Shown: one piece after another, positions 2,283 through 59,900 of the stretch
Layout: every line of letters starts with the position of its first letter
Numbering within the stretch: the stretch's first letter is position 1
From: Dictyobacter arantiisoli
Lineage (GTDB): Bacteria; Chloroflexota; Ktedonobacteria; Ktedonobacterales; Ktedonobacteraceae
Assembly (NCBI RefSeq): GCF_008326305.1
Contig: NZ_BIXY01000033.1
Coordinates: 1-64,000 of the forward strand
DNA length: 64,000 nt
Direction: 5' to 3'
Notes under the pieces: generated by a model
Told to the model about the DNA's origin: nothing
The model's database searches: none
What the model saw: the letters and a program-made list of their open reading frames with translations, nothing else
Translations under genes and position numbers: made by a program

Positions 2283-2475
2283 TGTCAGCCTCCCGTGGTC
2301 TCCACGGTCTCTGTGCATGCGTTTTCGCACCTGCGGTGCTCAAACATCTTTTTATTGTGTGGTGTTGGAAAAGTTCTTCGAACTTTTCCAACACCACACA
2401 ATAAAAAGGGCGCAGGCGCGTACGCGCCTGCCAGCCAGAGAGCAGCAAGATCCCGCTGGTATTGGGGGGCTGACA
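2283..2475 (+). repeat. Multi-hairpin interspersed repeat, copy 1 (type A ends)
   Basis: A 193-bp element whose ends TGTCAGCCTCCC and GGGGGGCTGACA pair with each other (one G-T). Inside, in order: a CCGTGG/CCACGG hairpin (about 2292-2306); the conserved GCACC-TGC-GGTGC hairpin; a perfect 28-bp inverted repeat at 2349-2376 / 2380-2407 with a TTC loop, flanked by T5 and A5; a perfect 20-bp GC-rich palindrome at 2412-2431; and the conserved block GAGCAGCAAGATCCCGCTGG. It separates two convergent genes. Short reading frames inside it recur in the other copies and are probably by-products of the repeat. Confidence 0.9.
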
Positions 2476-2513
2476 CATTCTCAAAGAGCGTGTCAGAGCA
2501 GGAAACAAAGTAG

Positions 2514-5294
2514 TTAATTGCTATTCAGCATTATATCCGGTACACCTGCATCCCCGGGCAGACCGGCAGGCATGCCCACTTTTAATCCACTGGGAACAGT
2601 AAACTTATACTGTGGGTGCTTCGAGAAAGGCAAGGAGATGTTACCGCAAGGAATACCATCAGTCGCATCGATACTTGGATCACTGGTGGGATTGACCTGT
2701 GTTTGCGCACTATAATTACACCAGCCCATGGAGCGTTCCATGACACTATGCCAGATCGGAGCGGCACCAGTAATACCAATCACATTGTTCATCGGAGAGT
2801 TATCGCTATTGCCAACCCAGGTACCCACTACCACATCAGGTGTATAGCCAATTGTCCAGTTATCACGAAAACTATCCGTGGTACCTGTTTTCGCCGCCAC
2901 CTGATGATCACAAACGGCAGAGACGGCACAGTTTCGATCAACATCCGCAAAAGAGAGATCATGGTCGCCCGTAAACTCATAGGCACGGGATGGCTCATCG
3001 GTCAGGACTGATGTGACCTGATAGGCGACCTGTGGCGAGAAGACGCGTGACGAGGGTGGCTTCTGCTCATTATAGTGATACACCACGTTGCCCGCGTTGT
3101 CCCAGATATTGAGAACGGTCTGGGGCGCAACCCGTTTCCCGCCATTGGCGAAAGCCTGGTAGCCACCCACCATCTGCAGGAGCGAAACATCTTTCGAGCC
3201 AATCGCCCAGGAGAGACCACCCAGGCCATCAGTATTGCCAAAGGTAATTCCCAGGCGTTTTACGGTATTTAAGACATTTCCAACACCTGCATATTGCATA
3301 GCCCGAATTGCAGGCACATTATACGAGTTGGCCCAACCCAGACGGATGGGTAATGTTTTGTGCTGATAGGTATGCTGATAGTCGTAGGGAGCATAAACCG
3401 TCGGCATCGAGTCAGCCTGATCGTCTGTCAACGGCACTGCTGAGCCAGCCTGCGCGCCATTGGGGAAGTAGGTCCTATCATCACGCAAATCGATCCCTGG
3501 ATTCCAGCCCATCTGGAAAGCGGTCGCGTAATCAAAAGGTTTAAAAGTCGAACCAGGAGGGCGGGCACCAACGGCTGCGTTGAAAAAGCCCGTGACCGTG
3601 CGATCTGACGAGTAATAGTTAGCACTACCAATCATTGACAATATCTCACCATTTTTGGCGTCTTCAACCACGACGGCACCATTGTTTACGTTGTTATTGT
3701 CTTTTAAAACGACTGTATACCCTTCTGTCTTTTGATAGTCTGCTTGATACAGGTGACGTTGAATGGCCGCCTGGGTATAGTTGTTCAGATTGAGATCCAG
3801 CGTGGTCTGGATATTTAAACCGCCAGTGACAAAGGCATTCACACCGGCGTTGGCATCACCATTGCCAAGGGCCGTCTCAACCTGATTAATCACATAATCC
3901 ACGAAGCCCGGCGCAAGCTTGATTGATTTGGGTGGTGTAAAAGTCATCTTAGCTGTTAGAGCTTCTGCCTCTTTTACCATAGCGTTGGTCAGTGGCTTAC
4001 CATCCACATACTTTCCCTGCGTGAACATCGCTTGTAGGACAAGTTTCTGACGCGCCAGAGCTGCAGCCTTGTTGGTAGGTCCCAGGGTAGGATCGAAAGA
4101 AACAGGTGAGTTCGGAATACCTGCAAGCAGGGAAGCACGCGCCAGGCCAAGCAAAGGATCATTTTTCTTAGTCTTCTGATCGTATTCGAGCTGCGAGATA
4201 GCAGGCGCACAGGGCTGATCAGGCTGACAGGTTGAGGTAAGCCCGAATAAGTCCTGTGCAGCAATCTCAACACCAGCATCCTGTGAACCGAAGGGCGCAA
4301 CATTAAAATACAACTCAAGGATTTTCTGTTTGGGAAATTGCTGGGTCAGGCCAATTGCCATTGCCGCCTCATTCAGTTTGCGATTGAACGACGGATCTTT
4401 ATCCCCGGTCAGATTTTTGATCAACTGCTGGGTAATCGTACTCGCACCACCATAACTGCTGGCGCCAGCACGGATAATTGCCAGAGGATCAATACCCGCA
4501 TTGCTCCAGAAGTTTTTATCCTCAATAGCGGTCATAGCATCCTGCATGACCATCGGGATGTCCTGATAACGAACGGCCAGACGGCGTCCGCCATTGCCGA
4601 CCTTGGAGTTTGAGTCGTAGGCTTGATAGAGCAAGGTATTGTTGCGATCATAAATGCGTGTCATTTGTGGCAACTGCTCATTGGCGTAACGCTCCATGCG
4701 TGGCTGCTGCTGTTGATAGTAGCTATAGCCATAGGCGCTGCTGCCAAAGGCACTCGTCAGGATCAGAATGAGCAAAACAGAGAGAATAATCACTACCGTA
4801 CGGCGTGCTGCGTTTCTCTCTTGTTGCTTACGTAGGCGCATCTGACGGCTAATCTTGCGAACACGTGCATAGCGTCGAAATCGGTTCCGCTTGCGTTCAG
4901 CAGCATTGAGCTGATCCTGCCTGCGCGCAGAAGATCGATATCGATCAATATAAGGAGCAGGCGGCTGCACTGTATGGCCAGCAATTGCAGCCATCTTATT
5001 GGTCCAGCCTTTGACTTTCTGCAGCGGACCAGCAGGCGCGAAAAAATCCTCCTGCGGTGGTAACGGAGAGAATTCCCCAGGGACGGCAGGCGGCGTTGGC
5101 GTATAGGGCGCTGGCATCATCCCCGGCACCGAACCTGGCTGACCAGATGGAGACACAGGAGTTATAGATTGATTATTTTGATTGTTGCCTGGCTGATTTT
5201 GCTGACCAGGCAGGTTGCTTGCGCCCCCCGTCTCTGGTGGATGGTGATTATTTTGTCGTTTATTTGGGGATTGCTCATCCCTGTCATTACTCAT
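2514..5294 (-). CDS. Class A penicillin-binding protein (PBP1A-like transglycosylase/transpeptidase)
   Basis: A 926-residue bifunctional murein synthase. Residues 1-155 are a cytoplasmic Pro/Gln/Asn-rich then Arg-rich segment, followed by a membrane anchor at about 167-190. The GT51 glycosyltransferase domain carries the EDKNFW catalytic motif (about residue 258) and the QQLIKNL motif. The transpeptidase domain has the Ser nucleophile in GSTFKPF (about 582), SYN (about 653) and KTGTT (about 800). It polymerises lipid II and cross-links peptide stems at the outer face of the membrane. AAGGA precedes the ATG. The long disordered N-terminus is unusual in length but seen in related multi-domain PBPs. 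It is monocistronic, with the multi-hairpin repeat directly downstream. Confidence 0.95.
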   Translation of the reverse strand: MSNDRDEQSPNKRQNNHHPPETGGASNLPGQQNQPGNNQNNQSITPVSPSGQPGSVPGMMPAPYTPTPPAVPGEFSPLPPQEDFFAPAGPLQKVKGWTNKMAAIAGHTVQPPAPYIDRYRSSARRQDQLNAAERKRNRFRRYARVRKISRQMRLRKQQERNAARRTVVIILSVLLILILTSAFGSSAYGYSYYQQQQPRMERYANEQLPQMTRIYDRNNTLLYQAYDSNSKVGNGGRRLAVRYQDIPMVMQDAMTAIEDKNFWSNAGIDPLAIIRAGASSYGGASTITQQLIKNLTGDKDPSFNRKLNEAAMAIGLTQQFPKQKILELYFNVAPFGSQDAGVEIAAQDLFGLTSTCQPDQPCAPAISQLEYDQKTKKNDPLLGLARASLLAGIPNSPVSFDPTLGPTNKAAALARQKLVLQAMFTQGKYVDGKPLTNAMVKEAEALTAKMTFTPPKSIKLAPGFVDYVINQVETALGNGDANAGVNAFVTGGLNIQTTLDLNLNNYTQAAIQRHLYQADYQKTEGYTVVLKDNNNVNNGAVVVEDAKNGEILSMIGSANYYSSDRTVTGFFNAAVGARPPGSTFKPFDYATAFQMGWNPGIDLRDDRTYFPNGAQAGSAVPLTDDQADSMPTVYAPYDYQHTYQHKTLPIRLGWANSYNVPAIRAMQYAGVGNVLNTVKRLGITFGNTDGLGGLSWAIGSKDVSLLQMVGGYQAFANGGKRVAPQTVLNIWDNAGNVVYHYNEQKPPSSRVFSPQVAYQVTSVLTDEPSRAYEFTGDHDLSFADVDRNCAVSAVCDHQVAAKTGTTDSFRDNWTIGYTPDVVVGTWVGNSDNSPMNNVIGITGAAPIWHSVMERSMGWCNYSAQTQVNPTSDPSIDATDGIPCGNISLPFSKHPQYKFTVPSGLKVGMPAGLPGDAGVPDIMLNSN

Positions 5295-5850
5295 ATATAT
5301 TCCTTAAAAATAGACGCATCGGCGTAGAGCATTTTTCACTATTTCTTGCGCACAACGCAACAGATCAACAATAGCTATCATCCTCACTCATTTTTGTACT
5401 CCTGCAATCGTTGTAGCATCAATCTCCCAAAAGCACGAAGTGACAAATGTAGATGTTTTCAAGGAGGACAATCTTTACTGTATATCTGAATACATTATTC
5501 CCGATCTATTGCGACTTCTCATCGACCTAGCAGGTCATGTAATACGTTCTATCTCAATAAGACATCTCTTTACAAGACGAAACAGGGAATGCAATCATAA
5601 CAAGATCCCCTACCTGGGTGATGGCTTGTGGCCTCAATAGCCCAGAATAGCCCACACCTATACTTGTATAATGAATTGTACCCTCACAGACTTCTGTTTC
5701 CGCGCTTACATGGCCTATTTGTACCAGTTACAGAGAAGGATTTCATCGAGGATATCCAATTAGCTTCAAGTGGCTTCAGTGCAAGCCTCACGCAGGTGGG
5801 ATTATAAAGAGCAAGCAGCCCTTAACAATCCCATTGAAACAGTTTTACGC
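5295..5850. other. Intergenic region without recognised gene
   Basis: This 556-bp gap lies upstream of the PBP gene and downstream of the xylosidase gene (both minus strand). The only open frame of note (5440-5640, plus) has no ribosome binding site and no recognisable sequence. I see no terminator hairpin and no repeat. Confidence 0.5.
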
Positions 5851-8172
5851 TCAGGCGAGAACAATATGCAGTGTCTGATTGCCATTTAGAGGAGTGATAC
5901 ACACGCCCTGCGGAGTGCCGGTGTAATCCCCACCCTCGACGCTGACGATCTCGCTGATTCCTCTCAGCACGAGGCTCCAGGCTTTGCCAACGCCCGTAGC
6001 ATGCACATTGATGCACTTCCCCTCACGCGTCACAGTCGCCTGCAACTCCGGCTCCCCATGAGTATTGCGGACCGTCGTGCTGGCCTGCCCATCCTGTGAC
6101 AAGAAAACGTGCAGGACGACATCGGCAGCATAGTCATAATCCGGCTTGCTCTCTTGATTGCCAATAGCAATCATCGAGTTGTCGCGGGCATACAGTGGAA
6201 GGCTCAGATAGCCATGCTGCTCCTTGCGCCAGCTCCCTCCCTGTACCTGCTCGCCAGTCAGGAAGTTCATCCAGGAACCAGCAGGCAAATAGAACTTGAC
6301 CTCGCCAGCCTGATTGAAGATAGGAGCCACCAGCAAGGAAGATCCCAGCATATACTGTCGATCCAGATAATCACAAGCCGGATCACCATCAAACTCAAGC
6401 AGCATAGCGCGCATTACCGGCAGGCCATACTCCTTCGCCTGATGGGCAACATCATAAAGATACGGCATTAAGCTACACTTCAAGCGCGTAAAGAAGCGCA
6501 GCACATCCACCGACTCTTGATCGTAGTTCCACGGCACGCGATACGAATTGCTACCATGCAAACGACTATGACTGGAAAGCATGCCAAACGCTAACCAGCG
6601 CTTGTAAATATCGGCTGGTGCTGTATTCTCAAAACCACCAATATCATGGCTCCAGAAGCCAAAGCCAGAGAGACCAAAGGACAGGCCGCCGCGCAGGCTT
6701 TCCGCCATAGACTCATAGGTGGCATTGCTATCACCGCCCCAATGGACAGGGAACTTCTGGCTACCCACCGAAGCCGAGCGGGCAAACAGCACCGCCTCAT
6801 CCTCGCCCTTCACCTCTTTCAAGAGATTATAGACGGTCTCATTATAAAGATATGCGTAGTAATTATGCATTTTATGAGCATCTGATCCATCCGCGTAGAC
6901 GCCATCGAGCGGGATGCGCTCACCGAAATCGGTTTTAAAGCAATCCACACCCATATTAAGCAGAGTTTTCAACTTGCTTGTATACCAGGTGCGTGCCTCA
7001 GAATTGGTGAAATCGACAATTCCCATACCAGGCTGCCAGAGATCTGTCTGCCAGATACTCCCATCAGCCTTTTTGATCAGATAGCCATTCTTGCGACCCT
7101 CTTCAAATAAATGAGAGCGCTGCGCAATATAGGGATTAATCCAGACGCAGATTTTGAGGCCGCGCTGCTTGAGACGCCGCAACATCCCCTCGGGATCTGG
7201 GAAGACGTCTTCATCCCATTGGAAATTGCTCCAATGCAGGCCCTTCATCCAGAAGCAATCGAAGTGGAAGACATGCACCGGCAAATCCCGCTCGGCCATG
7301 CCATCGACAAAATGCGTCACCGTCTGCTCGTCATAATTAGTCGTGAAGGAGGTGGAGAGCCAGAGACCAAAGCTCCAGGCGGGCGGCAGAGAGGGTTTGC
7401 CGGTCAGAGCCGTATAATTTCCCAGCACCTCTTTGAGGCTAGCGCCACCAACAATATAGTAATCCAGGCTCTCACCGGGCACACTGAACTGTGCACGCGC
7501 CACACGCTCCGTTGCAATCTCAAAGGAGACAGTTTCAGGATGATTGACAAAGACACCATAACCATTATTGGTAAGATAGAAAGGAATGCTCTTGTATGCC
7601 TGCTCGGTGCCAGTTCCACCATCAGCATTCACCGAGTCCACAACCTGTCCATTTTTCGCAAAGGCGGTAAAACGCTCACCGAGTCCATAGACATATTCAC
7701 CTACCGCCAGATCAAGCTGTTCACGCATATAGGTAGTACCATCATCGGTCGTGATATGGGCCGTACTGCGATCTCCACTCCCGGTAAGCCTGCGTCCATC
7801 ATACGTAAACTCAACATTCCAGGGATGCGCTTTCTGAACATGCACCGCCAGTTTGCCACTGCGCAATGTCGAAACGTGCTCTGCATCGCTCACCTCAACC
7901 GGCTGCTCATCAATCGCCTGCAACTGAAAATGCGGGCCATGATCGACCTGTCCTTTATGATGAACGATCTGCACATGCATCACATCGGGCAGAGGAGAGG
8001 AATAGCGAATTTCTAGCAGTGGATCACCAATACCGACAGCACGATTCTCCACATGGCGTGAGGGGGCAAAAATAGTTAACGCATTGGGCTCAATCAGACG
8101 TTCGCGAACCTCGAACGGATGAAGCATTTTGATGCCCGGACGGATCAGCCAGTTACCGTCAGTAAACTTCAT
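5851..8172 (-). CDS. yicI: Alpha-xylosidase, GH31 (YicI type)
   Basis: A 773-residue glycoside hydrolase family 31 enzyme that removes alpha-linked xylose from the non-reducing ends of xylosides such as isoprimeverose. The N-terminus (MKFTDGNWLIRPGIKM) and overall layout match E. coli YicI. The catalytic nucleophile is the Asp of KTDFGE (about residue 414) and the acid/base Asp lies in GGDSNATYESM (about 480), followed by GLSFGLSGFGFWSHDIGGF. GAAAGGA lies upstream of the ATG. It has no signal peptide, so it is cytoplasmic and probably works on imported oligosaccharides. A second, divergent GH31 sits with an ABC importer at 16988-22477, and the two could share substrates, which is an inference. 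Confidence 0.93.
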   Translation of the reverse strand: MKFTDGNWLIRPGIKMLHPFEVRERLIEPNALTIFAPSRHVENRAVGIGDPLLEIRYSSPLPDVMHVQIVHHKGQVDHGPHFQLQAIDEQPVEVSDAEHVSTLRSGKLAVHVQKAHPWNVEFTYDGRRLTGSGDRSTAHITTDDGTTYMREQLDLAVGEYVYGLGERFTAFAKNGQVVDSVNADGGTGTEQAYKSIPFYLTNNGYGVFVNHPETVSFEIATERVARAQFSVPGESLDYYIVGGASLKEVLGNYTALTGKPSLPPAWSFGLWLSTSFTTNYDEQTVTHFVDGMAERDLPVHVFHFDCFWMKGLHWSNFQWDEDVFPDPEGMLRRLKQRGLKICVWINPYIAQRSHLFEEGRKNGYLIKKADGSIWQTDLWQPGMGIVDFTNSEARTWYTSKLKTLLNMGVDCFKTDFGERIPLDGVYADGSDAHKMHNYYAYLYNETVYNLLKEVKGEDEAVLFARSASVGSQKFPVHWGGDSNATYESMAESLRGGLSFGLSGFGFWSHDIGGFENTAPADIYKRWLAFGMLSSHSRLHGSNSYRVPWNYDQESVDVLRFFTRLKCSLMPYLYDVAHQAKEYGLPVMRAMLLEFDGDPACDYLDRQYMLGSSLLVAPIFNQAGEVKFYLPAGSWMNFLTGEQVQGGSWRKEQHGYLSLPLYARDNSMIAIGNQESKPDYDYAADVVLHVFLSQDGQASTTVRNTHGEPELQATVTREGKCINVHATGVGKAWSLVLRGISEIVSVEGGDYTGTPQGVCITPLNGNQTLHIVLA

Positions 8173-8534
8173 ACAAGGTATCCTTTCAAGTCATGCGAGA
8201 AAGAAATTTTGATCGCATTTGTAGATAATTTTTTAGAAAGAATGTGAGTATTCATCGCATCTGAAGAAGAATCTATAAAAAATACACATCTCGTGCCATT
8301 GCGCTCTTGAGAACAGATAATCATTCCTCCCTGTCCTTCACAGAGCCCATCCTTTGCCTATATCAATGCTTTTGGGGAACCTTCACCAGATAAAGAATAG
8401 TACTCTCTTGCATCTTATCATAGAACGACAAGTAAACCTCACCTTCACGGTAAACTTGTACTTTACACATAATCGCTCAATTTTGAAGACGGTAAGGCCA
8501 GTATCAAGAATGAGAACTCGCAATTTTATGGCAA
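8173..8534. other. Intergenic region upstream of the alpha-xylosidase gene
   Basis: AT-rich, with no gene seen. It should hold the promoter for the xylosidase gene on the minus strand, but I could not pick out a convincing -35/-10 pair or a LacI-type palindrome like the one at 22717. Confidence 0.4.
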
Positions 8535-8568
8535 AATCTACCATTTGGCGAAATCTATCATTTGGCGA
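8535..8568 (+). repeat. 17-bp tandem duplication at the 3' end of the CAP-domain gene
   Basis: Two adjacent 17-bp units (8535-8551 and 8552-8568, AATCTAyCATTTGGCGA) differ at one base and begin a third (AATCT). On the minus strand the duplication covers the last codons of the CAP gene (DFAK-stop). The second unit lies just past the stop and repeats that C-terminal coding sequence. Confidence 0.8.
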
Positions 8569-9349
8569 AATCTTCAGTCAACCAGACACGCGCATGCACA
8601 GTATCTACCAGTACATCGACGCCAATCATAGTATTGCTGGACAGGATATTGCGGCGATGGAAATCGTCGGGTGGTCGCTCTCCAAACATCGCCTCATTCA
8701 GGCCCAGAACGGCGAGTTGAGGATTGCCACGCCCGATACCGATATTTTCCCCAAATCCGGTCCAGTTAATGTCCTCTTGCCGGATACGCGTGCCTGGATC
8801 AGCCTCCCCGGGCAATTGATGCGCAAGCGTGTTGGTTGCCGCCATGGCTTGATTATGTCTGAGTGCGCCCAGAGCTAGAATATTTGACCACTGAAATGCT
8901 GGTAAGCCAGCATTAGCGCGCTGCTGATTAATCTCCATGAACACCGCCTGAGCCGCCTGTAAGGCTGATGAACTACTACCAGTCCCTGCACCAGAAGAGG
9001 GGACTGGAATGGTGGTCGGAATGATCACCACGGTTGGAATGGGGGTAGGGATGGGTGTGGGTATTACCTTGTCTGGTTTGGGAGGAAGGGGAGGAAGCGC
9101 GCCCGTCGCTTTTATCGATCTGACACCTAATTTGGCCCCAATCAGCGTTGCGCCACCCTGCACGGCAGTAGAACGCGCTGTCAAATGGGGAGACTGATCC
9201 TGCCGCGCCTGAATGCTCTGATCGCGGGTGGACCCGCAAGCAACCAGCAACAACAGCAACATCCCGATCAAGAGAGATTGGACAATGCTATATGGTTTCT
9301 TGAACAAAACATATCTCCCCATCAATAAATGGCACACACGAAGATTCAC
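8558..9349 (-). CDS. CAP/SCP-domain lipoprotein (cysteine-rich secretory protein family)
   Basis: A 263-residue product if it starts at the GTG at 9349; an ATG at 9322 would give 254 residues. Neither has a strong ribosome binding site. A basic n-region and a hydrophobic core end in the lipobox LLVAC, so the protein is probably a membrane-anchored lipoprotein. A Pro/Thr/Ile-rich linker (about residues 85-125) leads to a CAP domain with the HNQAMAA, GENIG and HRRNIL motifs and the terminal VWLTEDFAK strand. Bacterial CAP proteins are extracellular and mostly of unknown biochemical role. A 17-bp duplication overlaps the stop. Confidence 0.85.
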   Translation of the reverse strand: MNLRVCHLLMGRYVLFKKPYSIVQSLLIGMLLLLLVACGSTRDQSIQARQDQSPHLTARSTAVQGGATLIGAKLGVRSIKATGALPPLPPKPDKVIPTPIPTPIPTVVIIPTTIPVPSSGAGTGSSSSALQAAQAVFMEINQQRANAGLPAFQWSNILALGALRHNQAMAATNTLAHQLPGEADPGTRIRQEDINWTGFGENIGIGRGNPQLAVLGLNEAMFGERPPDDFHRRNILSSNTMIGVDVLVDTVHARVWLTEDFAK

Positions 9350-11448: not shown

Positions 11449-11478
11449 TAGCAACCACTCTTTGAAGCATGAAGGGAT

Positions 11479-11536
11479 GTGTAGGTGCGTGCCGAGGTCG
11501 CAACCGAGGTGCGCTTTCCCGTTCCTCGTACGACCA
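11479..11536 (+). repeat. Short interspersed repeat B, copy 1
   Basis: The sequence GTAGGTGCGTGCCGAGGTCG continues as CAACCGAGGTGCGCTTTCCC and TTCCTCGTACGACCAT. It recurs almost identically at 40969-41024, and in shortened form at 41038-41079. It contains the internal near-repeat CCGAGGTCGCAA / CCGAGGTGCG. It is non-coding and lies between the M32 gene and the pyrC 3' end. Confidence 0.8.
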
Positions 11537-11588
11537 TCTCACCTCTCGGCATAGCCCTACCTCAACAGTCATGCCAGGGTACATCACA

Positions 11589-11655: not shown

Positions 11656-11713
11656 CTACGTTTTTCGTCAAAATCCCTCTTCTTTTAGTGGGATTGCTCG
11701 TGAATGGCGGTTG

Positions 11714-24059: not shown

Positions 24060-24070
24060 TTAGTTAGACA

Positions 24071-24264
24071 GTGTTTGATTCCCATGGTCTTCGCCATCCT
24101 GGCGCATGAGTTTTCGCACCAATGGTGCTCAAACAGATTTTTATTATGTGATGTAGAAAAGGTTCGAAGAACCTTTTCTACATCACATAATAAAAAGGGC
24201 GCAGGCGCGCAGGCGCCTGCCAGCAGGTGAGCAGCAAGATCCCGATGGTGATGGGAAACAAACG
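24071..24264 (+). repeat. Multi-hairpin repeat, copy 2b (full length)
   Basis: A 194-bp full copy with ends GTGTTTGATTCCC and GGGAAACAAACGC. The central hairpin at 24138-24165 / 24169-24196 is a perfect 28-bp inverted repeat with a GAA loop. Compared with copy 1 the stem differs at several positions, but each change is matched on the other arm. The small hairpin reads GCACC-AAT-GGTGC here. It lies in the divergent gap between the LacI gene and the operon starting at 24519. Confidence 0.9.
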
Positions 24265-24518
24265 CTTTGTTAGTAGTTGTTGAAAACGGGTCACTATGGA
24301 GAAGAGGATAATTCTATCATACACTGTTTTGGAACAGATAGCTAGAGCTAACTGGAGCCAGGGGACGGCAAAAACTACCGTTCAAGCCAGTTCATCCCTC
24401 TCGAAGTAAGCAAGCCAGATTAAAAATCTCCTCCTTAATTACTTGACTTCTTCTACGTCTACCGTTACGCTTTATGCGAGCATCCACTTATCTCAATGGA
24501 CATAAAGGGGTAGACATT

Positions 24519-44052: not shown

Positions 44053-44084
44053 AACATATCCTTCCCATGGTCGCTTCTATAAAA

Positions 44085-44147
44085 GTGTTTAATTCCCAAT
44101 ACCAGCAGGTGAGCAGCAAGATCCCGCTGGTATTGGGGGCCTGACAC
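44085..44147 (+). repeat. Multi-hairpin repeat, copy 4a (63-bp remnant)
   Basis: It starts with a type B left end (GTGTTTAATTCCC), jumps to the GAGCAGCAAGATCCCGCTGG block and finishes with a type A right end (GGCCTGACAC). The ends therefore no longer pair, but AATACCAGC still pairs with GCTGGTATT. It looks like a mosaic formed by deletion or recombination between two copies. Confidence 0.8.
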
Positions 44148-44158
44148 TCTCTATGAGT

Positions 44159-44354
44159 GTGTCAGCCTCCCATGATCTCCACGGTCTCTGTGCATGAGTT
44201 TTCGCACCTGCGGTGCTCAAACATCTTTTTATTGTGTAGTGCAGGAAAGGTGCACAGCACCTTTCCTGCACTACACAATAAAAAAGGGCGCAGGCGCGCA
44301 AGCGCCTGCCAGCCAGGGAGCAGCAAGATCCCGCTGGTATTGGGAGGCTGACAC
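44159..44354 (+). repeat. Multi-hairpin repeat, copy 4b (full length, type A ends)
   Basis: A 196-bp copy with perfectly paired ends GTGTCAGCCTCCCA / TGGGAGGCTGACAC. The central 28-bp inverted repeat at 44226-44253 / 44257-44284 is perfect, with an ACA loop and arm sequence different from copies 1 and 2b. The GC-rich palindrome reads GCAGGCGCGCAAGCGCCTGC (one mismatch). An 11-nt linker (TCTCTATGAGT) precedes it and another (TCTCTATGACA) follows. Confidence 0.9.
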
Positions 44355-44365
44355 TCTCTATGACA

Positions 44366-44560
44366 GTGTTTGATTCCCATGCTCTTCGCCATCCTGGTGC
44401 ATGAGTTTTCGCACCTGCGGTGCTCAAAACTGTTTTTAGTGTGTGGTGCAGAAAAGGTGCATAGCACCTTTTCTGCACCACACACTAAAAAGGGCGCAGG
44501 CGCGCAGGCGCCTGCCAGCAAGTGAGCAGCAAGATCCCGATGAGAGTGGGAATCAAACAC
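44366..44560 (+). repeat. Multi-hairpin repeat, copy 4c (full length, type B ends)
   Basis: A 195-bp copy with ends GTGTTTGATTCCCA and GTGGGAATCAAACAC pairing. The central 28-bp inverted repeat at 44433-44460 / 44464-44491 is perfect, with an ATA loop, and identical to that of copy 5 at 59773. Tandem with copy 4b but of the other end type, so the array was not made by simple duplication of one unit. Confidence 0.9.
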
Positions 44561-44572
44561 TTTGTATGAGTG

Positions 44573-44640
44573 TGTCGGACTCCCATGCTCTCCACGGTCT
44601 CTGTGCATGAAGATCGCAGGGACATGAGAATCAAGTACTC
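44573..44640 (+). repeat. Multi-hairpin repeat, copy 4d (left-end fragment)
   Basis: It begins GTGTCGGACTCCCATG and keeps the CTCCACGGTCTCTGTGCATG stretch. It then diverges and ends with CATGAGAATCAAGTACT, a degraded type B right end. All inner hairpins are gone. Confidence 0.75.
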
Positions 44641-44889
44641 TCTAAGTATAAGCGATGAAATCAATAATTATAGAGGTAAGAGAAATTTTTTCTCTTTTTC
44701 ACAACCGCTTACAAGATGCTCCATTTGGTGGGCCGATTTTTTGCGCCTTCTGCCCCTTACCTTCCTTCGCAAGACAGTTATTAACCAGACATTCAAGCGA
44801 TACAATTATTCCTGTTTATTCTTCTCTTGCAATTTTTCTCCAAATATGTCAATATACAGGCAATATTGCATCAGGAGACAAAAAAATAT

Positions 44890-45292: not shown

Positions 45293-46081
45293 GTGGATTA
45301 CAATTGGACCAATTGCTCGAAGGTCGTTAAAACGGAGGTGCTCACGCTGGTCGCTGAGTTACAACGTCTATTAGAAGATAATCTGACCGGTATTTATCTC
45401 TACGGATCAATGGCGGCCGGTGGCTTTAATCCTGAACGCAGCGATATCGATATCCTGGTGGTGACACCTCATAACATGTCTGGTGAGACCAAAAAAAATC
45501 TGCTGGAATTGCTCTGGCGCATGTCACGCGTACCCAGTGCCTTGGATATTACCTTTCTCGTTTCAAGCGTGCTGCATCCTTTTCAGCCAGCCCTCCCGAT
45601 TGAATTCCATTATGCTGAGAAACTGCGCGAGTTCTATCTGCAGGGACTGCGTACGCAAGGCGGTACAGCCTGGCTGGATGCGACAAAAGAGGATGCTCAT
45701 CTCGTCCTCGCTCTCACTGCCCTACGACACTATGGTATTTGTCTATACGGAACGCCCATAGCCGAGGCGATCCCTGACGTGCCTGAGTCGCTATTCCGTG
45801 CAACCCTGTTAGACGTCATGCGCAATACATTGGAAACATATCTCAGTGATCCTTTTACCTGTGTATTAAACGCCTGCCGCTGTCTCGCTTATCTACGTAC
45901 AGGCAGTTATCTTTCAAAAAGCGCTGCTGGAACCTGGGCCTTAAGCGCGCTCCCCGCAGAGTATCACCCCTTGATCACTCAATCGCTGGCCATCTATCGC
46001 AGTGAACGCCTGGGTCGTGCCCTGGGCCGCAAAATTCTGGATGATTTTGTCGCTTTTACCCAACAAGAAATAGCAAAATAG
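45293..46081 (+). CDS. AadA-like aminoglycoside nucleotidyltransferase family protein
   Basis: 262 residues starting at a GTG with AGAGGATG upstream. The nucleotidyltransferase motif reads YGSMAAGGFNPERSDIDILV, with the metal-binding Asp pair in SDID. The C-terminal helical domain shows CRCLAYLRTGSYLSKSAAGTWAL, as in ANT(3'')-type AadA/DUF4111 enzymes. Confirmed members adenylate streptomycin or spectinomycin. Environmental homologues are common and often untested, so resistance activity is a family-based inference. Confidence 0.88.
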   Translation: MDYNWTNCSKVVKTEVLTLVAELQRLLEDNLTGIYLYGSMAAGGFNPERSDIDILVVTPHNMSGETKKNLLELLWRMSRVPSALDITFLVSSVLHPFQPALPIEFHYAEKLREFYLQGLRTQGGTAWLDATKEDAHLVLALTALRHYGICLYGTPIAEAIPDVPESLFRATLLDVMRNTLETYLSDPFTCVLNACRCLAYLRTGSYLSKSAAGTWALSALPAEYHPLITQSLAIYRSERLGRALGRKILDDFVAFTQQEIAK

Positions 46082-49246: not shown

Positions 49247-49268
49247 TAATAAGCTGTGCCTGTTCTAC

Positions 49269-50196: not shown

Positions 50197-50235
50197 ACCA
50201 CAGGTCATCTGGCTACATGAGTGAATAACATAACA

Positions 50236-53200: not shown

Positions 53201-53880
53201 AGCGCAGTTATCTGTTGCTCTGAAAAAAAGAGCAGGGATTCCTTTAATACTTCTCTTAAGGGAGGCGCATTTTGCAGGGTACGCCAGAAGACATAATCAA
53301 ATAAAGTGTTGACTTGATTCACTAATGCTACAGCAAGACTGGTTTTTCCAATTCCTCCCTGCCCTAATATCGATAAGACACAACAATGCTCATGTTCAAT
53401 CCATTTTTCTAGCGTGGTAAACTCTTCCAGCCTGCCGTAAAACTTTCCTTGTTGCGGCGCGCCATCCCAATCTATCCTCGTCTCATTTGCCATCCGTGCT
53501 ACGGATGTCGATTGATCCACATCTGGAGCACGCGTCACAGTGTTATTTGCGCTAGCAGGGGATGTGGTCAGGATAGCGGGTACAACTCTATGTGCATCCA
53601 CAAGAGTAGTAGAAACATGGGATGATGATAAATCCGTAGAGGCTATCTTTATTGAGGGCTCCTTCTCGGGCAGAAGAAGAGTGGGTGGAAAAACTTGAAA
53701 AAAAGCTAGCACCACACCAATAACAGTTATTACAACCACAGGGATAAGTGCCTGGGCCCCCTGAATAATCCAAAGAATTGCCAGTCCTATGACCAATAGT
53801 AACACGGCAATTAAAATAAGCCAGCGACCCCATAGTGGCAAAGGATGTTTAGGTTCCGCCTCAGGTGCTCTGGGTATCAT
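50236..53880 (-). CDS. Membrane-anchored STAND NTPase with 14 WD40 repeats
   Basis: 1214 residues. Two hydrophobic segments (about 19-42 and 45-64) start the protein where many STAND proteins have an effector domain. The NB-ARC ATPase has Walker A GQGGIGKTSLAV (about 175) and Walker B CLLIFDNLE, followed by LLTSREK and the NPLALKLV (GxP-like) motif. A helical region and a short pentapeptide-like stretch (KYDFSHLFIRQAYLQKVN) connect to 14 WD40 repeats (about 610-1185), enough for two seven-bladed propellers, each with the GHxxxVRSVAFSPDG...TIRLWD pattern. STAND proteins oligomerise on ligand binding to the repeats. Without a known effector, the membrane segments may be the output. Confidence 0.93.
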   Translation of the reverse strand: MIPRAPEAEPKHPLPLWGRWLILIAVLLLVIGLAILWIIQGAQALIPVVVITVIGVVLAFFQVFPPTLLLPEKEPSIKIASTDLSSSHVSTTLVDAHRVVPAILTTSPASANNTVTRAPDVDQSTSVARMANETRIDWDGAPQQGKFYGRLEEFTTLEKWIEHEHCCVLSILGQGGIGKTSLAVALVNQVNTLFDYVFWRTLQNAPPLREVLKESLLFFSEQQITALPENEEAALALLFDILKKKRCLLIFDNLETILQDGNHASLYQYGYEDYDNFIRRFGTTRHSSCLLLTSREKTKELVLLESASAGVRSLSVAGLDTKVGRAIIEDGTLFGSDDQWSMLVQIYSGNPLALKLVCEFIREIFGGNIEVFLRERDGSTGIHALLDQQFKRLSALELEIIYWLAVERERVSLEELRVDLVTSVIKKELLDALLSLRRRFLIETTGSSVQFTLLPLIMEHVADVLVDQIYEEFLNEDINIFGKYALMKADAKEHVRESQIRFFLAPLAKRLLDNFGESELQQKCQHILSLIHTFPAAQPTYAAGNMLSLLIFLKFDLEKYDFSHLFIRQAYLQKVNLSNVNFRSTHFDKSMFTDTLGNILSLSFAPVGDLVAGGTTTSSVRIWRWQGMHASPHLDCTGHTDWVRSVTFSPDSNVLASCGNDQTIRLWDVNTGICLSVLRGHNSWVRQVIFSPDGKVLASCGNDQTIRLWDVATRQCMHILQGHEGEVRSIAFSPDGTRLVSGSQDKTVRFWDLTSRDCLAIVTGHTSEVWSVAFSPDSRFCASASDDQTIRVWDSQTHALHHVLTGHTRRVRSVAFHPLEPLLISASEDQTIRQWDTLTGQRRHTLVGHTGWIRSIAFNADGSVLASGGDDQTIRLWETNTNHCLTALSGHSNWIKTVAFSPDERLLASNSDTYTLSLWQTEIEETAHMLTGHNSWVRTVAFSPDGNLLASGSEDTVVRLWNVRREQYVKTLRGHHSWVTSVAFSPDGNVLASASEDASICLWNIQTGKAIHTLTGHTHRVGSIAFSPDGTLLASAGDDQKVRLWNVQLGTCLTTLHGHTSRVRSVAFSPDGRFLASASGDHTVRVWQTDTWRCLHILLGHTNWVRSVAIGADAVIASGSDDRTIRLWDARTGECIQVLEGHADHVRAVAFNGQGNHLASGSRDGSIRLWDVPAGTCYKILKCDRPYEHMDITGASGLTEVQRETLKVLGAIDH

Positions 53881-54207
53881 ACCTGTTCTCCATCAGCATG
53901 CAAAAACAAAAATAATAATCTATACAGCTTTGTATAATACAATAATTATGAATACAACAATGTATTTGCTATTCAAGCATTTTTTTATTCCTATTCGGGA
54001 TGATATAGATTTATAGCTATACAGCAACATACTTGAATAATAAAAACATTTTATCATAAACATCGCTGAATAGTCATTACTTTCTCACCTGAAATTCCTA
54101 TCACCATTCATATAACGTCTTTTGTACTCACGCACATGCGCTGATTTATACATATAGATTATAAGAATCCTCTTTTGGTTGTAGAGCCTATCTGGTACTA
54201 AACGCAC
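53881..54207. other. AT-rich intergenic region upstream of the STAND gene
   Basis: Very AT-rich; it should include the promoter for the STAND gene on the minus strand. I see no ribosome-binding-site-bearing frame and no repeat. Confidence 0.4.
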
Positions 54208-54249
54208 GAAAGCCCTCGTTCATCCTTTTTCAGGAGACGAGGGCTTTCA
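54208..54249. terminator. Hairpin downstream of ilvD (terminator-like)
   Basis: GAAAGCCCTCGT (54208-54219) pairs perfectly with ACGAGGGCTTTC (54238-54249). It lies 40 bp past the ilvD stop on the minus strand; T-rich sequence after the stem is weak in both directions. Confidence 0.7.
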
Positions 54250-54289
54250 TTTACATTCAGAGATTGTTATCTCTTAAGCTAGCAAGCGA

Positions 54290-55969
54290 TTAGATTTCGG
54301 GGACGGCCAGGACTGCGCCAGTGTTGGCGGAGGTGACCATGGAGGCGTAACGACGCAGCCAGGAGCTCTTGACACGTCCTTTGACATGGGTCACCTGGCT
54401 CAGGCGCTCGGCGATCTGCGCAGGAGTCAGATTGACCTCCAAACGGCGCTCAAGCAGATCCAGATGGATCATATCGCCATCCAGCAGGGCCGCGATTGGT
54501 CCGTCGGCGGCGGCCTCAGGCGAGACGTGACCGATACAGGCACCACGAGTACCACCAGAGAAGCGACCATCGGTGATCAGAGCAACCTTATCGCCCAGTC
54601 CCATACCCATGATATTGGCGGTGGGAGCCAGCATCTCCTGCATACCAGGACCACCACGCGGACCCTCGTAGCGGATAACCACAACATCGCCAGCTTTAAC
54701 CTGACCATTCAGAATACCAGCGCAGGCCTCTTCTTGTGAATTATAGATACGGGCAGGTCCGGTATGATTCATCATTTCAGGCGCTACAGCGGCCACTTTG
54801 ACGACCGACCCCTCAGGAGCCAGATTGCCAAACAGGACCGCTAATCCACCTTTTTCGCTATATGGATTATCAATGGAATGGATCACTTCGGAATCCAATA
54901 CATCGGCGTCAGCAATATTCTCGCCCAGGGTGTGCAGCGTCACGGTTGGCCGATCCAGATTGAGGACACCCTCTTTTTTGGAGAGCTCTTTGAGGATGGC
55001 GCTAATGCCACCGGCACGATCCACATCCTCCATATGCCAGCTACCAGCCGGGCTGACTTTACATAAATGAGGTGTGCGGGCCGCTACTTGATTGATGCGC
55101 TCCAGCGAATAATCGATCTCGCCTTCGCGGGCCAGGGCCAGAGTATGCAAGACAGTATTGGTCGAACCCCCCATCGCCATATCCAGGGCAAAAGCGTTAT
55201 CAATGCTCTCCTGGGTCACGATTTTGCGGGGGGTCAGATCGGCTTTGATCAGCTCAAGGATCTGGGCACCGGCCCGGCGCGCCAGTTCTTCGCGGGCCTC
55301 AGTTTTCGCCAGACGGGAACCATTGCCCGGCAAGGCCAGGCCCAACGCCTCCATCAGACAGTTCATCGAATTGGCGGTGAACATACCTGAGCATGAGCCA
55401 CAGGAAGGGCAGCTCTTCTGTTCCAATTCCAGCAACTGAGCATCATTAATCTTGCCCGCTTTATAGGCACCCACGCCCTCAAAGATACGGATCAGATCAG
55501 AGCTACTGCCATCAGAGAGCTTACCAGCTGCCATGGGACCACCACTGATAAAAATAGTGGGAACATCCAGACGCATCGCCGCCAGCAGCATCCCCGGAAC
55601 GATCTTATCGCAGTTCGGGATACAGACCATACCGTCGAAGCGATGGGCCTCAATCATGGTCTCAACGCTATCCGCGATCAACTCACGACTGGGCAGTGAA
55701 TACTTCATACCGATATGGCCCATCGCGATACCATCATCGACGCCAATTGTATTGAACTCAAACGGTACCCCGCCAGCGGCGCGAATCGCTTCCTTCACCA
55801 GTTTGCCAAAAGCCTGCAAATGCACATGACCTGGAACCACATCCACATACGAGTTACAGACGGCGATAAATGGCTTATTAAAATCGTTCTCACCTACAAC
55901 ACCTGTTGCACGCAGCAAACCACGGTGAGGAGCGCGCTCGAAGCCGAGCTTAATCTGATCTGAACGCAT
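54290..55969 (-). CDS. ilvD: Dihydroxy-acid dehydratase
   Basis: 559 residues, the normal length. It dehydrates 2,3-dihydroxy-isovalerate and 2,3-dihydroxy-3-methylvalerate in valine and isoleucine synthesis. The iron-sulfur ligands appear in VCNSY-type ([14 protein letters not shown]), [12 protein letters not shown] and [20 protein letters not shown] motifs. The C-terminal [21 protein letters not shown] is conserved. AGGAGGCG precedes the ATG. No other ilv/leu genes adjoin it. A possible regulatory leader upstream (55970-56319) was not resolved. Confidence 0.96.
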
Positions 55970-56319
55970 TGCGCCTCCTAAAAGCTAGCAGGAGTTTTCT
56001 TTCCCCTGTCCAATAGAGTATGAAAAAACATGCTTCCGGTCAGCGAGACCAGAGATTTTCCTTACATCTTAATACATACAATCAAGGACGCCGCCCATGT
56101 GTGTTCGCACGTAAGAAGTGTCGCTCGTTGACTGCCATGCCATGCTGACTTCTTTTTGTAGGGCAATACACAAACAAGCCGGTATTGCCAATGGATGGCA
56201 AGCCAGCTTCAATAAAAAGTGTTGCGAGTAGGGTTATCCCCCCACAAAAAGAAACTAGTAGGACTCAAGTATAACACAGGCGCGAATTTATGTATCTATC
56301 CAAATGGAGATAACAAATG
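55970..56319. other. Intergenic region upstream of ilvD
   Basis: 350 bp between the decayed methyltransferase and ilvD. It holds GC-rich short stretches (GACGCCGCCCATG) but no leader peptide rich in branched-chain codons and no T-box core that I can recognise. Confidence 0.4.
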
Positions 56320-56774
56320 CTACGACAAGGGTTGCTGTGGCTGGCCCCAACTCACAATCCCACGCACACGAAACGTCACCAGACCATCGGGATGGCTCTG
56401 CCACAAGACCTCACGCGCCTCCCGATCAAAGGCCTCGGCATGGCCGGACTGCATCCTGGCGCGTGAAAAACCACTACGTGCATGATAGGACTCGACATAA
56501 TCATCAACTGACGCACCTGCTCCAGCATCGCCTGCGCATAATCCACCGCATCGATCCGCTCAATATCAGCATCGCGAGCTGCCAGTGAGCGTGCCAGATT
56601 CCCATTCCCGCAACCAGCATCCAGTATCGAGCAAGGCTCATCCTGGATCAAATCCCGCAAAATATCAAACGTACCCACAGGATATGCGGGACGCAACAGA
56701 TACGCAGCCGCCACATCCTCATCCGTAAAAGCCGCCGCATGCTCTTGCATCAAGTATTCAGGCTTCTCCTGCAT
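56320..56774 (-). pseudogene. Class I SAM methyltransferase, internally deleted and frameshifted
   Basis: The 5' part (start ATG 56774, GGAG upstream) encodes the N-terminal half of a methyltransferase with motif I ILDAGCGNGNLARSLAARDA and DAVDYAQAMLEQVRQ. Directly after RQL the original frame becomes nonsense and stops at 56376. The +1 frame continues as DDYVESYHARSGFSRARM, then AFDREAREVL and DGLVTFRVRGIVSWGQP to a stop at 56320. That is the usual C-terminus of such methyltransferases. About 90 middle residues are missing, so both a deletion and a frame change have occurred. Confidence 0.8.
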
Positions 56775-57045
56775 CGCAAACTCCAATTATTAAAACATAT
56801 AAACAATCACAAAAATTACGCCTCTATAATCTTCGTCCACAATCTGCATGTTCTGGCTCGTTCCCAGCCGCTTCAAGCTGATCTTCAGGACGCTGCGTGA
56901 TTTCTTGACCGGCTCTCCAGGCCCTGCGTTACACAGAGAGCTTCATTAAGGCTCTCTACGGGCTAGTTCAGCTAGTTATTCCAAGTTTTGGTTCCTACTG
57001 TGGGCAAATCCCGGTTCTTAGAAAATTGTGCCGGGTAACCAGTTT

Positions 57046-57753
57046 TTATGGCTGGGACTTATATATGCCCAGCGAAAACTTGTGTACCACTCGATCAATA
57101 AATTCGCTGACAGGCACATCGTCTATTTGCTTGGCAAACTCAGGGAGCAGCCATTGGTACTTCTGGAGTTCATAGTAATCATACAGCAGCATTCGCAGCG
57201 TCAAATCGCGCTCCATGAGGAATACAGGGTCCATGATGTTACGCAGGAAGAGTTCATTTTGCAGCACCGCAAGCACCGGCTTAATAGGATGGAAGATGCC
57301 CTGAGCAATGCCCTGCTCATAGAACCGCTGGAGCTGCTGCTGCCATTCTCGCTGGGCCTGTTTGACACGTTCCCATAAGAGCGGCGAGAGCTGTTTCACG
57401 TCAAGCAAAAGTGTCTCAGGGAGATAGCAGGCAATGTCCAGGGATTGCATAAAGGCCTGCTGAAAGCGCAGAAGAGGAGGAGAAGACTCGTCTCCTACAA
57501 GCGTAGCAGCCTGCTTGAGAGAAGCCACCACCAGATCCACTCCTTGCTCAACGACATCTTCTTTTGAGGAAAAATACTTATAGAACGTGGCTTTACTGAT
57601 ATCCATAAAGCGCACAATGTCGTCAAGCCTCAGATGGCCCAATCTCTGGTGTTGGATCACAGGCAGTAAGCGGGTAAGGTACTTCTGTTTCAACTCCTCA
57701 TATCGTTCACCGCGCTGCTCAACAGGCGAAGCGCTCTTTTCAACTTCACTCAT
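57046..57753 (-). CDS. TetR/AcrR family transcriptional regulator
   Basis: 235 residues. The N-terminal HTH is LRLDDIVRFMDISKATFYKY followed by FSSKEDVVEQGV, the standard TetR layout. The C-terminal ligand-binding domain is divergent. CAGGAGC precedes the ATG. It is divergent from an SDR gene with 212 bp between them. A perfect 11-bp inverted repeat overlaps its own leader, so it probably represses itself and the SDR gene until a ligand binds. Confidence 0.92.
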   Translation of the reverse strand: MSEVEKSASPVEQRGERYEELKQKYLTRLLPVIQHQRLGHLRLDDIVRFMDISKATFYKYFSSKEDVVEQGVDLVVASLKQAATLVGDESSPPLLRFQQAFMQSLDIACYLPETLLLDVKQLSPLLWERVKQAQREWQQQLQRFYEQGIAQGIFHPIKPVLAVLQNELFLRNIMDPVFLMERDLTLRMLLYDYYELQKYQWLLPEFAKQIDDVPVSEFIDRVVHKFSLGIYKSQP

Positions 57754-57764
57754 ACATGCTCCTG

Positions 57765-57789
57765 ACTTGACTGGCCCTGCCAGTCAAGT
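57765..57789. promoter_or_regulatory. Probable TetR operator (11-bp perfect inverted repeat)
   Basis: ACTTGACTGGC (57765-57775) and GCCAGTCAAGT (57779-57789) are perfect inverted repeats around CCT. The site begins 12 bp upstream of the TetR start, next to its ribosome binding site, which fits autorepression. Confidence 0.7.
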
Positions 57790-57832
57790 ATACCAGATCA
57801 CCGGATCACTGTAAATGAAAGAGACAAAATAT

Positions 57833-57870
57833 ATAAAGTAGACGAAAAAGGATAAATTTGTTTACTTTAT
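57833..57870. promoter_or_regulatory. Second inverted repeat in the TetR-SDR gap
   Basis: ATAAAGTAGAC (57833-57843) and GTTTACTTTAT (57860-57870) pair at 10 of 11 positions. The site is about 95 bp from the SDR start and could be a second operator or overlap its promoter. Confidence 0.4.
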
Positions 57871-57965
57871 ACTAATCTTGTGGTAGAGTAACAAAGAAGC
57901 AATGCTTCTCTTAGGCGTTCGCGCGCACTGACGCGGCGTCATTCTCTGAACAGAAGGAGACTCAT

Positions 57966-59006
57966 ATGAGTGGAGAACTTGTACTTGTCACAGGTGGATC
58001 GGGATTTCTTGGTGCGCACTGCATCCTGCACCTTCTGGACTCTGGCTATCGTGTGAGAACAACGGTGCGTTCGCTCAAGCGTGAAGCCGACGTACGTGCC
58101 ATGCTCAAAGCGGGCGGTGCTGAACCGGGAGAGGCACTCTCCTTCGTCGCCGCCGATCTGATGGACGATGCGGGCTGGTCAGAAGCCGTGGCAGGGTGTG
58201 ACTTCGTACTTCACGTCGCCTCGCCCTTTCCGCCCAGTCAGCCGAAAAACGAGGACGAACTCATCATTCCAGCCCGCGAAGGTGCTCTGCGTGTACTACG
58301 GGCTGCGCGGGACGCGGACGTCAAACGCGTCGTGCTAACCTCTTCGTTCGCCGCCATCCACTACGGTTTCGCGTCCACAAACCACCTCTTTACCGAAGAG
58401 GACTGGACCAACCTGAACAGCCGCCATCTCAGCGCCTATGTGAAATCGAAGACGCTGGCAGAGCGTGCGGCCTGGGACTTCATCGCCCGCGAAGGTGGTA
58501 CGTTGGAACTCACAGTCATCAATCCGGCCGTTATCTTTGGGCCCGTGCTTGGAGCGGACTATTCAAGCTCCATCCAGATCATGCAGCGTTTAATGGACGG
58601 AGCACTGCCGGGCTGTCCGCGCCTCACCTTTGGTGTCGTCGATGTGCGGGACGTCGTGGATCTGCACGTGCGTGCCATGACCAATCCGGCGGCCAATGGG
58701 CAACGCTTCCTAGCCACCGCTGAAGATGGCATGACCATTCAGCAAATCGCCCTCGTGCTGAAAAAGCGGCTGGGAGATGCAGCGAGACGAGTGCCGACCA
58801 GGGAACTGCCCAATTGGCTGGTGCGGCTGGCCTCATTGGTCGATCCCTCGATCGCGCAATTCATTCCCGAACTGGGCAAAGCCTGGAACGTCACCAATGC
58901 CAAAGCCAGAGAGCTGCTTGGTTGGACACCGCGCTCGAACGAAGAGGCCATCGTCGCGGCTGCCGAGAGCTTGCTGCGGCTCGGCCTGTTGCGGCACGTC
59001 AAATAG
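57966..59006 (+). CDS. NAD(P)-dependent SDR / epimerase (dihydroflavonol-4-reductase-like)
   Basis: 346 residues of the extended SDR type. The Rossmann motif is VTGGSGFLGAHC (residues 8-19), with TVRSLKRE beyond beta-2 suggesting NADP. The downstream LTSSFAAI supplies the active-site Ser, and the YVKSK motif holds the catalytic Tyr and Lys. PAVIFGPVLG follows. It reduces an aldehyde or ketone whose identity is not readable. GAAGGAG precedes the ATG. Its GC content appears higher than its neighbours', and a Tn3-family remnant lies 130 bp downstream, so it may have been acquired with that element. Confidence 0.9.
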   Translation: MSGELVLVTGGSGFLGAHCILHLLDSGYRVRTTVRSLKREADVRAMLKAGGAEPGEALSFVAADLMDDAGWSEAVAGCDFVLHVASPFPPSQPKNEDELIIPAREGALRVLRAARDADVKRVVLTSSFAAIHYGFASTNHLFTEEDWTNLNSRHLSAYVKSKTLAERAAWDFIAREGGTLELTVINPAVIFGPVLGADYSSSIQIMQRLMDGALPGCPRLTFGVVDVRDVVDLHVRAMTNPAANGQRFLATAEDGMTIQQIALVLKKRLGDAARRVPTRELPNWLVRLASLVDPSIAQFIPELGKAWNVTNAKARELLGWTPRSNEEAIVAAAESLLRLGLLRHVK

Positions 59007-59093
59007 GTTGATGGAACGCGGGATTACCAACGCTCCTAGCTTTTTTTGCAGAGAGACGCCCACGCTTTGAGCACATCAGAGCCTGCTCACCAG

Positions 59094-59147
59094 ATATACG
59101 AAACGTCATGCGGAGTGGTGCGCTTGCAGCGCATGACGTTTCATATA
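59094..59147. repeat. Inverted repeat at the SDR / Tn3-remnant junction
   Basis: TATACGAAACGTCATGCG (59095-59112) and CGCATGACGTTTCATATA (59130-59147) pair at 17 of 18 positions around a 17-nt spacer. The right arm runs into the open frame of the transposase remnant. It may mark the point where the transposon was broken, or be a hairpin terminator for the SDR gene; there is no T-run. Confidence 0.6.
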
Positions 59148-59397
59148 CGGGATGAAGCGATATTTGACCTGTGCCATGATGGCCGCCTTATACCTGCATC
59201 TCATTCAGGTCAGCCTCGCTCTCATCAATACGTTGATGCTGCAAGAAGTCTTGGCCGAGGAGAAATGGAAGAATCCGATGAAGCAAGAAGACTGGCGAGG
59301 ATTAACACCACTGTTCTACCAGCATGTGAACCCCTATGGACGCTTCACGTTGGATATGACCCAACGTATTCCTTTATCCGTCACCAAAATTGCCTGA
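59137..59397 (+). pseudogene. tnpA: 3' remnant of a Tn3-family transposase gene
   Basis: About 85 residues remain open: [20 protein letters not shown], then [20 protein letters not shown] and [20 protein letters not shown]. This is the characteristic C-terminus of Tn3-family TnpA proteins (NTLMLQ..., LTPL..HVNPYG), which are normally close to 1000 residues. A stop lies upstream at 59134 in this frame, and the rest of the gene, including most of the DDE domain, is absent. A terminal inverted repeat with outer CCCC lies downstream, as expected for the tnpA end of such a transposon. Confidence 0.8.
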
Positions 59398-59402
59398 GCC
59401 TC

Positions 59403-59503
59403 TGCTCATTGTGGTAATTGTGCTGAACGTTTGAACGAACATACTGTGCTGAAGGCTATTGCGTCGAACCGTCAGCACAATTACCACAATGAGCACATTC
59501 CCC
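59403..59503 (+). mobile_element. Tn3-type terminal inverted repeat with an inverted second copy
   Basis: The 38 bp ending at 59503 (59466-59503), read inward on the minus strand, start GGGGAATGTGCTCATTGTGG, as Tn3-family ends start with GGGG. The inner 24 bp (59472-59495) are repeated exactly in inverse orientation at 59403-59426, just past the transposase stop. A normal Tn3 end has only one such copy, so this is either a duplicated end or a second element's end facing the first. Confidence 0.7.
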
Positions 59504-59705
59504 AAAAAACTGTGCCGCACTTATCTACTTTGCGGCTACAAGGCGTCTTCCTTAAGGTTCATAACACCTGGCAGGACATTTTTTACTCTGCCATGAAATT
59601 TCAGATGGCTTTCTGCCAGGTGTGATGACACCATGCATAACCACTTGTTGAATATCAGGCTGTTGTGTGTAACACAGGGCCAGCTACGTCAAAGACACAA
59701 AGAAT

Positions 59706-59900
59706 GTGTTTGATTCCCATGGTCTTCGCCATCCTGGCGCATGAGTTTTCGCACCTGCGGTGCTCAAAACTGTTTTTAGTGTGTGGTGCAGAAAAGGTGC
59801 ATAGCACCTTTTCTGCACCACACACTAAAAAGGGCGCAGGCGCGCACGCGCCTGCCAGCAGGTGAGCAGTAAGATCCCGCTGGGAGTGGGAATCAAAAAC
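59706..59900 (+). repeat. Multi-hairpin repeat, copy 5 (full length)
   Basis: A 195-bp copy with type B ends (GTGTTTGATTCCC / GGGAATCAAAAAC). The central hairpin 59773-59800 / 59804-59831 is a perfect 28-bp inverted repeat with an ATA loop, identical to copy 4c. The GC-rich palindrome is GCAGGCGCGCACGCGCCTGC. It lies 200 bp from the Tn3-type end. Confidence 0.9.

Follow-up and report, generated by a model that had tools for sequence, protein, structure and literature searches.

Very probably IS5-type MITEs with an unusual internal palindrome are dispersed in Dictyobacter arantiisoli and some of its congeners

Introduction

Among described mobile repeats, the closest to the family reported here are bacterial MITEs derived from the IS5 family (DUF4096/DDE transposases, 3-bp TNA duplication). 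Those elements are likewise short, non-coding, intergenic and of high copy number, with a folded interior, and here too TNA is duplicated and the terminal inverted repeats (TIRs) match those of an insertion sequence (IS), in this case one from a congener. The present family differs from them in a length of ca. 204 bp that is nearly fixed in four species, in its ordered internal hairpins, in a long perfect palindrome that evolves as a unit and in frequent insertion flush to its own ends. The Coxiella QMITEs and the Neisseria Correia/NEMIS repeats are also MITEs for which strong secondary structure is predicted (PMC10969869, PMC5896051). However, QMITE2 has 7- to 9-bp duplications and TIRs of 23 to 29 bp, and a hairpin cassette with arms of constant length is not mentioned in the parts of the QMITE and NEMIS descriptions consulted. 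The many dispersed intergenic hairpins recall the REP/REPIN sequences moved by RAYT, from which the family is set apart by its TNA target duplications and IS5-type ends; the TNA duplication speaks against a REP/RAYT element, for which no target duplication is expected. Lastly, homogenization of the arms and inversion of the spacer between inverted repeats are the published signature of template switching, or quasipalindrome correction (PMC8604942; PMC8794818). It has been reported at separate, unrelated sites, whereas here there are many dispersed copies of one hairpin with arms held at ca. 28 bp. The genome paper of K. racemifer counted 601 transposase genes and reported no palindromes or hairpins, and no description of the family was found in the open-access literature searched. 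The preliminary description of this locus had considered that the copies might turn out to be a described IS-derived MITE. They are of IS5 type, but none of the open literature searched describes them, so that the family, an IS5-type MITE whose internal palindrome is unusual, is apparently undescribed. With the IS of the congener, these very abundant repeats now have a named partner.

Elements in the window and in the genome

The window, i.e., the whole 64-kb stretch of DNA analyzed, was searched with the 3' block of the repeat (8 matches at up to 3 mismatches, 0.01 expected). Delimitation of the elements gave repeats at all the places named in the preliminary description, nine in total, five of them full (203 to 204 bp) and four internally deleted:

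2278 to 2480, + strand: full MITE of 203 bp; target duplication TCA on both sides; long hairpin at about 2349 to 2408; covariance model (CM) score 202 bits
23909 to 24063, + strand: internally deleted MITE without the long hairpin; its right end abuts the next copy at TTA
24067 to 24269, + strand: full MITE of 203 bp; target duplication TTA on both sides; CM score 194.5 bits
42777 to 42909, - strand: internally deleted MITE of 133 bp without the long hairpin
44081 to 44151, + strand: deleted MITE with only the two ends and the 3' block; target duplication TAT; array unit 1
44155 to 44358, + strand: full MITE of 204 bp; TAT on both sides; array unit 2; CM score 201 bits
44362 to 44564, + strand: full MITE of 203 bp; TAT on both sides; array unit 3
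44568 to 44642, + strand: deleted MITE, on our reading of the sequence a left end and H1 fused to a decayed right end; array unit 4
59702 to 59904, + strand: full MITE of 203 bp; flanks AAA and TTA differ; CM score 202.6 bits

The order of parts proposed earlier (ends, small hairpin, long hairpin, palindrome, 3' block) agrees with the sequence, and so does the four-unit array, whose units lie end to end from 44081 to 44642 with single TNA triplets in common, two of them being full copies. Other points needed revision. The size of ca. 195 bp was too small, the T5 and A5 runs exist but form the base of the long stem instead of separate flanks, and the 3' block does recur without being invariant, its terminal bases being CTGG or ATGG. 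The unmatched flanks of the last copy, AAA and TTA, indicate that it is old or rearranged. Outside its hairpin, the copy at 44362 to 44564 is identical to those at loci L116 and L142 of our set, and its loop reads ATA where that of L142 reads TAT. About 650 bp from the array there is an aminoglycoside adenylyltransferase-like gene (NTP_transf_2, AadA_C; 45293 to 46081).

In the genome of the window, G000 (7.2-Mb draft assembly, 256 contigs), GAGCAGCAAGATCCCG occurs 172 times at up to 2 mismatches, and its reversed control not once. The closest relatives of a protein encoded in the window belong to Ktedonobacteraceae. Contigs C36, C85, C150, C96 and C148 of this draft start or stop inside MITEs; the repeats have probably broken the assembly, with some copies missing or chimeric.

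Ends, target duplication and the IS5-family partner

The ends were analyzed at 110 places with the 3' block (80 stretches plus the window), a few of which are chance matches. Right ends have the form ACAC-N4-TNA and left ends TNA-N4-GTGT. There are two end types in G000, CAAAGTGTTTGATTCCC and GAG(A/T)GTGTCAGCCTCCC, and both can occur in one copy. The TIRs are present but imperfect, so that the termini do pair, as had been noticed before, but as ordinary and often mismatched transposon inverted repeats. In copies with TNA on both sides, the middle base of the two triplets agrees in 33 of 37 cases (9.3 in shuffles, p < 1e-4). This agreement indicates target duplication by a DDE-type transposase and hence that the element is a MITE. 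At 18 of 94 right ends, the shared triplet is followed directly by another left end, which explains the array at 44081 to 44642. Length is conserved as well: where the ends could be recognized in the congeners, the MITEs measure mostly 198 to 206 bp, and ca. 204 bp is kept even in species whose copies are only ca. 70 to 77% identical to those of the window.

We looked for the partner among the DUF4096 transposases across the genus and inspected the DNA around them for inverted repeats flanked by TNA. One congener, G004, carries a 1,077-bp IS5-family element in five copies that are 99.8 to 100% identical, each with a 3-bp duplication; such identity implies recent activity. Four of the five lie flush against the end of a MITE or an IS. 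The right 30 bp of this IS are found without mismatch in two MITEs of the same genome and with 1 to 4 mismatches in 23 more (40 matches at up to 8 mismatches, none in the reversed control). Its two overlapping ORFs match Pfam DUF4096 and DDE_Tnp_1 above the cut-offs and jointly match NF033580 (IS5 family transposase), the first above and the second below the cut-off. A related IS of 1,095 bp, with TIRs matching at 18 of 18 positions and the target duplication TGA, is present in G003. In G000 the DUF4096 matches, all of them short or degenerate, lack MITE ends, and no intact partner IS was found in this draft, which in its 256 contigs may miss IS copies; the transposases of G000 with PF01609 and PF13586 were discarded as partners, since none of them has MITE ends.

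The family is thus very probably an IS5-type MITE, contrary to the earlier view that it could not be assigned to a known family, the assignment resting on the target duplication, the terminal repeats and the IS of G004. The same TIRs and TNA duplication, with the matching autonomous IS of a congener, bear out its reading as a non-autonomous mobile element, and at 203 to 204 bp it has no transposase of its own, nor was one found among the ten neighboring window proteins scanned. Judging from the sequences, the MITEs have apparently been moved by an IS5-type transposase. Ends, duplication and IS are observed directly, and from them we infer transposition itself. An IS5-family transposase (NF033580; DUF4096 plus DDE) would mobilize the MITEs in trans, acting on ends of ca. 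17 to 30 bp and duplicating TNA, and insertion flush against an existing end would give rise to tandem arrays.

Two further loci involve IS5-type elements. At L282:1792-3948 of G004, two identical 1,077-bp copies stand head to tail with one TTA in common. Another IS5-type element of G003, 966 bp long and present in four copies (L269, L274, L278 and L281), has the TIR GAGTGTGTCTTAAACTGA and TNA duplications.

Distribution

A covariance model, one of the checks suggested with the preliminary description, was built and run on G000 and other Ktedonobacteraceae genomes, and found many relatives in three of the four congeners. The matches number at least 150 in G000, at least 150 in G004, 136 in G003, 74 in G001 and 1 in G002, figures that are rough since the palindrome can match on the opposite strand. 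The MITEs reach copy numbers in the hundreds in genomes of one group of soil bacteria. Outside the genus, the model had matches in one further genus, here called g8, while 11 of the 13 genera of the family gave none; phage and plasmid collections gave no match to the element either.

The long hairpin and probable template switching

Since CM searches favor good hairpins, the statistics were taken from sequence-anchored sets. In these sets the long hairpin is perfect in 75 of 85 cases in G000, 68 of 77 in G004, 46 of 51 in G003 and 20 of 31 in G001, but a hairpin was missing at 8 of 85 anchored places in G004, at 19 of 70 in G003 and at 32 of 63 in G001. The arms measure ca. 28 bp in two genera and, within a copy, match at ca. 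99% of positions, the mismatch between the two arms being 0.5% both in G000 and in G004. Between copies, the arms vary more than their flanks in G000 and about equally in G004 and G003; identity to the nearest neighbor was 95.9% outside the hairpin versus 82.8% in the arm in G000, and 87.4% versus 86.2% in G004. As many as 49 distinct arms were counted among the 78 copies of G000 with arms of at least 24 bp. Some pairs of copies are identical or one base apart outside the hairpin, yet differ by 5 to 6 fully compensated changes per arm, and others differ by a reverse-complemented loop alone. Loop orientation is nearly free: where two copies share the same 23-nt arms, the loop is the same in 55 pairs, reverse-complemented in 44 and another one in 2 (14, 12.5 and 74 after shuffling). 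The loop flip of the long hairpin reaches only p = 0.03 in G004, a genome in two large contigs, where the small hairpin GCGCC-loop-GGCGC has the loop AAA in 13 copies and TTT in 10. Private broken pairs are fewer in the long hairpin than in the other stems of the same copies (13/1913 versus 37/2023, p = 0.0015), and a larger share of the private changes is compensated there (11/24 versus 8/45, p = 0.02).

A functional RNA is usually taken to be proven by compensatory base changes. In this family such changes come without a sign of selection on an RNA strand, with loop inversion and in many dispersed copies. In a DNA-level process, replication template switching would copy one arm onto the other and flip the loop, giving a perfect hairpin, and the identity of the arms is likely to have this cause; while the compensated arms and flipped loops are read directly from the copies, the process we infer from known template-switch signatures. 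Cassettes would probably also be swapped between copies, although such exchange stands on weak ground because G000 is a draft and short-read assembly can produce chimeric repeats, and flipped loops as well. As an alternative to correction, the perfect hairpin could have been selected in each active lineage and inherited, each copy having been inserted recently. As a whole, MITEs mobilized by an IS5-type transposase and carrying a cassette whose hairpin is maintained by template switching are, with high probability, the best explanation. The family offers a natural large-scale test of whether DNA replication itself keeps hairpins perfect.

A box-plus-hairpin cassette in two genera

The cassette within the MITE consists of a conserved 20-nt hairpin box, TTTCGCRCCTNYGGYGCTCA, directly 5' of the perfect hairpin with arms of ca. 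28 bp. At up to 1 mismatch, the box has 206 matches in G000, 162 in G003 and 86 to 116 per genome in the g8 genomes G020, G023 and G025; there are 4 in a fourth g8 genome and 0 to 1 per genome in other genera (no box match in 10 of the family's 13 genera). The reversed control gave at most 1 match per genome and 0 in the three g8 genomes with many boxes. In g8, a hairpin follows within 0 to 7 nt at 12 of the 14 boxes inspected, in 11 cases with arms of 26 to 32 bp; the arms average 27.8 bp and contain no G·U pair, and the inner sequences are wholly different at constant length. No TNA/IS5-type ends were recognized around the inspected g8 copies (16 loci read). Arm length and position are thus kept while the sequence is free. 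This calls for an explanation in terms of function, which template switching by itself does not supply. Constant arm length and box point, weakly, to selection, most likely for a cassette that helps the element to spread or persist; that it aids spread is a tentative proposal, more doubtful than not. At replication forks, for example, its hairpin might act in extruded or single-stranded form.

The abundance of boxes in g8, mostly with a hairpin and without visible TNA ends, and the equal length of hairpins that differ in inner sequence would also fit an element in its own right that predates the MITE, moving or acting alone and captured by IS5-type MITEs in one genus. However, other ends may have been missed in only 16 g8 loci, 59 of 87 boxes in G000 come with the left end, hairpin and right block, i.e., most modules there are inside MITEs, and the stand-alone form has no known transposase or clear target duplication; we consider such an origin rather unlikely. 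The same low expectation applies to the fuller version, in which the box and its hairpin of fixed arms (ca. 28 bp) and free sequence would be an undescribed Ktedonobacteraceae element with its own function or mobility, housed in IS5 MITEs in one genus and stand-alone in a second, its palindrome rebuilt by template switching. The retention of the box and of a 28-bp arm in two genera raises a sharp question. At L351, in g8, a 12- to 13-bp direct repeat, GGCGTTAATTTAT, flanks a stand-alone cassette, by duplication or by chance.

RNA, terminators and gene context

The elements could also be structured non-coding RNAs, or mRNA ends cut by RNase III, with hairpins kept by selection on RNA. In favor of it, the stems covary over 30 copies (129 double-change cells versus 39 in shuffles), the short 5' stem has many G-U pairs, and the NEMIS repeats of Neisseria are substrates of RNase III according to a reference given in PMC10969869. 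Against it, broken pairs of the long hairpin (anchored and g8 sets) are G·U in 19 cases and A·C in 17, equally rare and unlike an RNA stem, without strand bias, a balance that leaves no sign of RNA-strand selection. Moreover, the 3' block has no conservation in G004, orientation relative to neighboring genes shows no significant preference (24 same, 15 opposite), and no Rfam family, HEARO included, matches the window at the gathering threshold. Permissive Rfam matches were set aside as microRNA models that fit any long hairpin. This reading is improbable, and the earlier suggestion of an RNA-type element is unsupported for the long hairpin. That the hairpins are transcription terminators carried by the repeat is hardly credible: the stems are strong and lie in intergenic DNA, but T5 at the 5' base and A5 at the 3' base of the long stem are the reverse of an intrinsic terminator, and the gaps occupied are convergent, divergent and co-directional in 16, 16 and 39 cases, as expected from all gaps (74, 77 and 192). 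A retron-like RNA was discarded, the ends being TNA-flanked transposon ends and none of the ten window neighbors scanned a reverse transcriptase.

The MITEs use all gene orientations at background frequency and are not simply terminators, as had been stated before. They had also been said to lie only between genes, which holds broadly, with 93 of 106 mapped copies outside long ORFs though 79% of the sequence is ORF, but not strictly: 13 are inside, and several of these are arrays that are themselves open. At about 3900 to 4100 of L063 (G000:C1:279900-280090), a MITE occupies the loop between the halves of an inverted repeat that resembles a terminator, GTAGCAGCCATCC ... GGATGGCTGCTAC, with T-rich DNA after it. 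Near a cassette copy, at L371:1177-1443 (- strand), a T-box leader exceeds the Rfam threshold.
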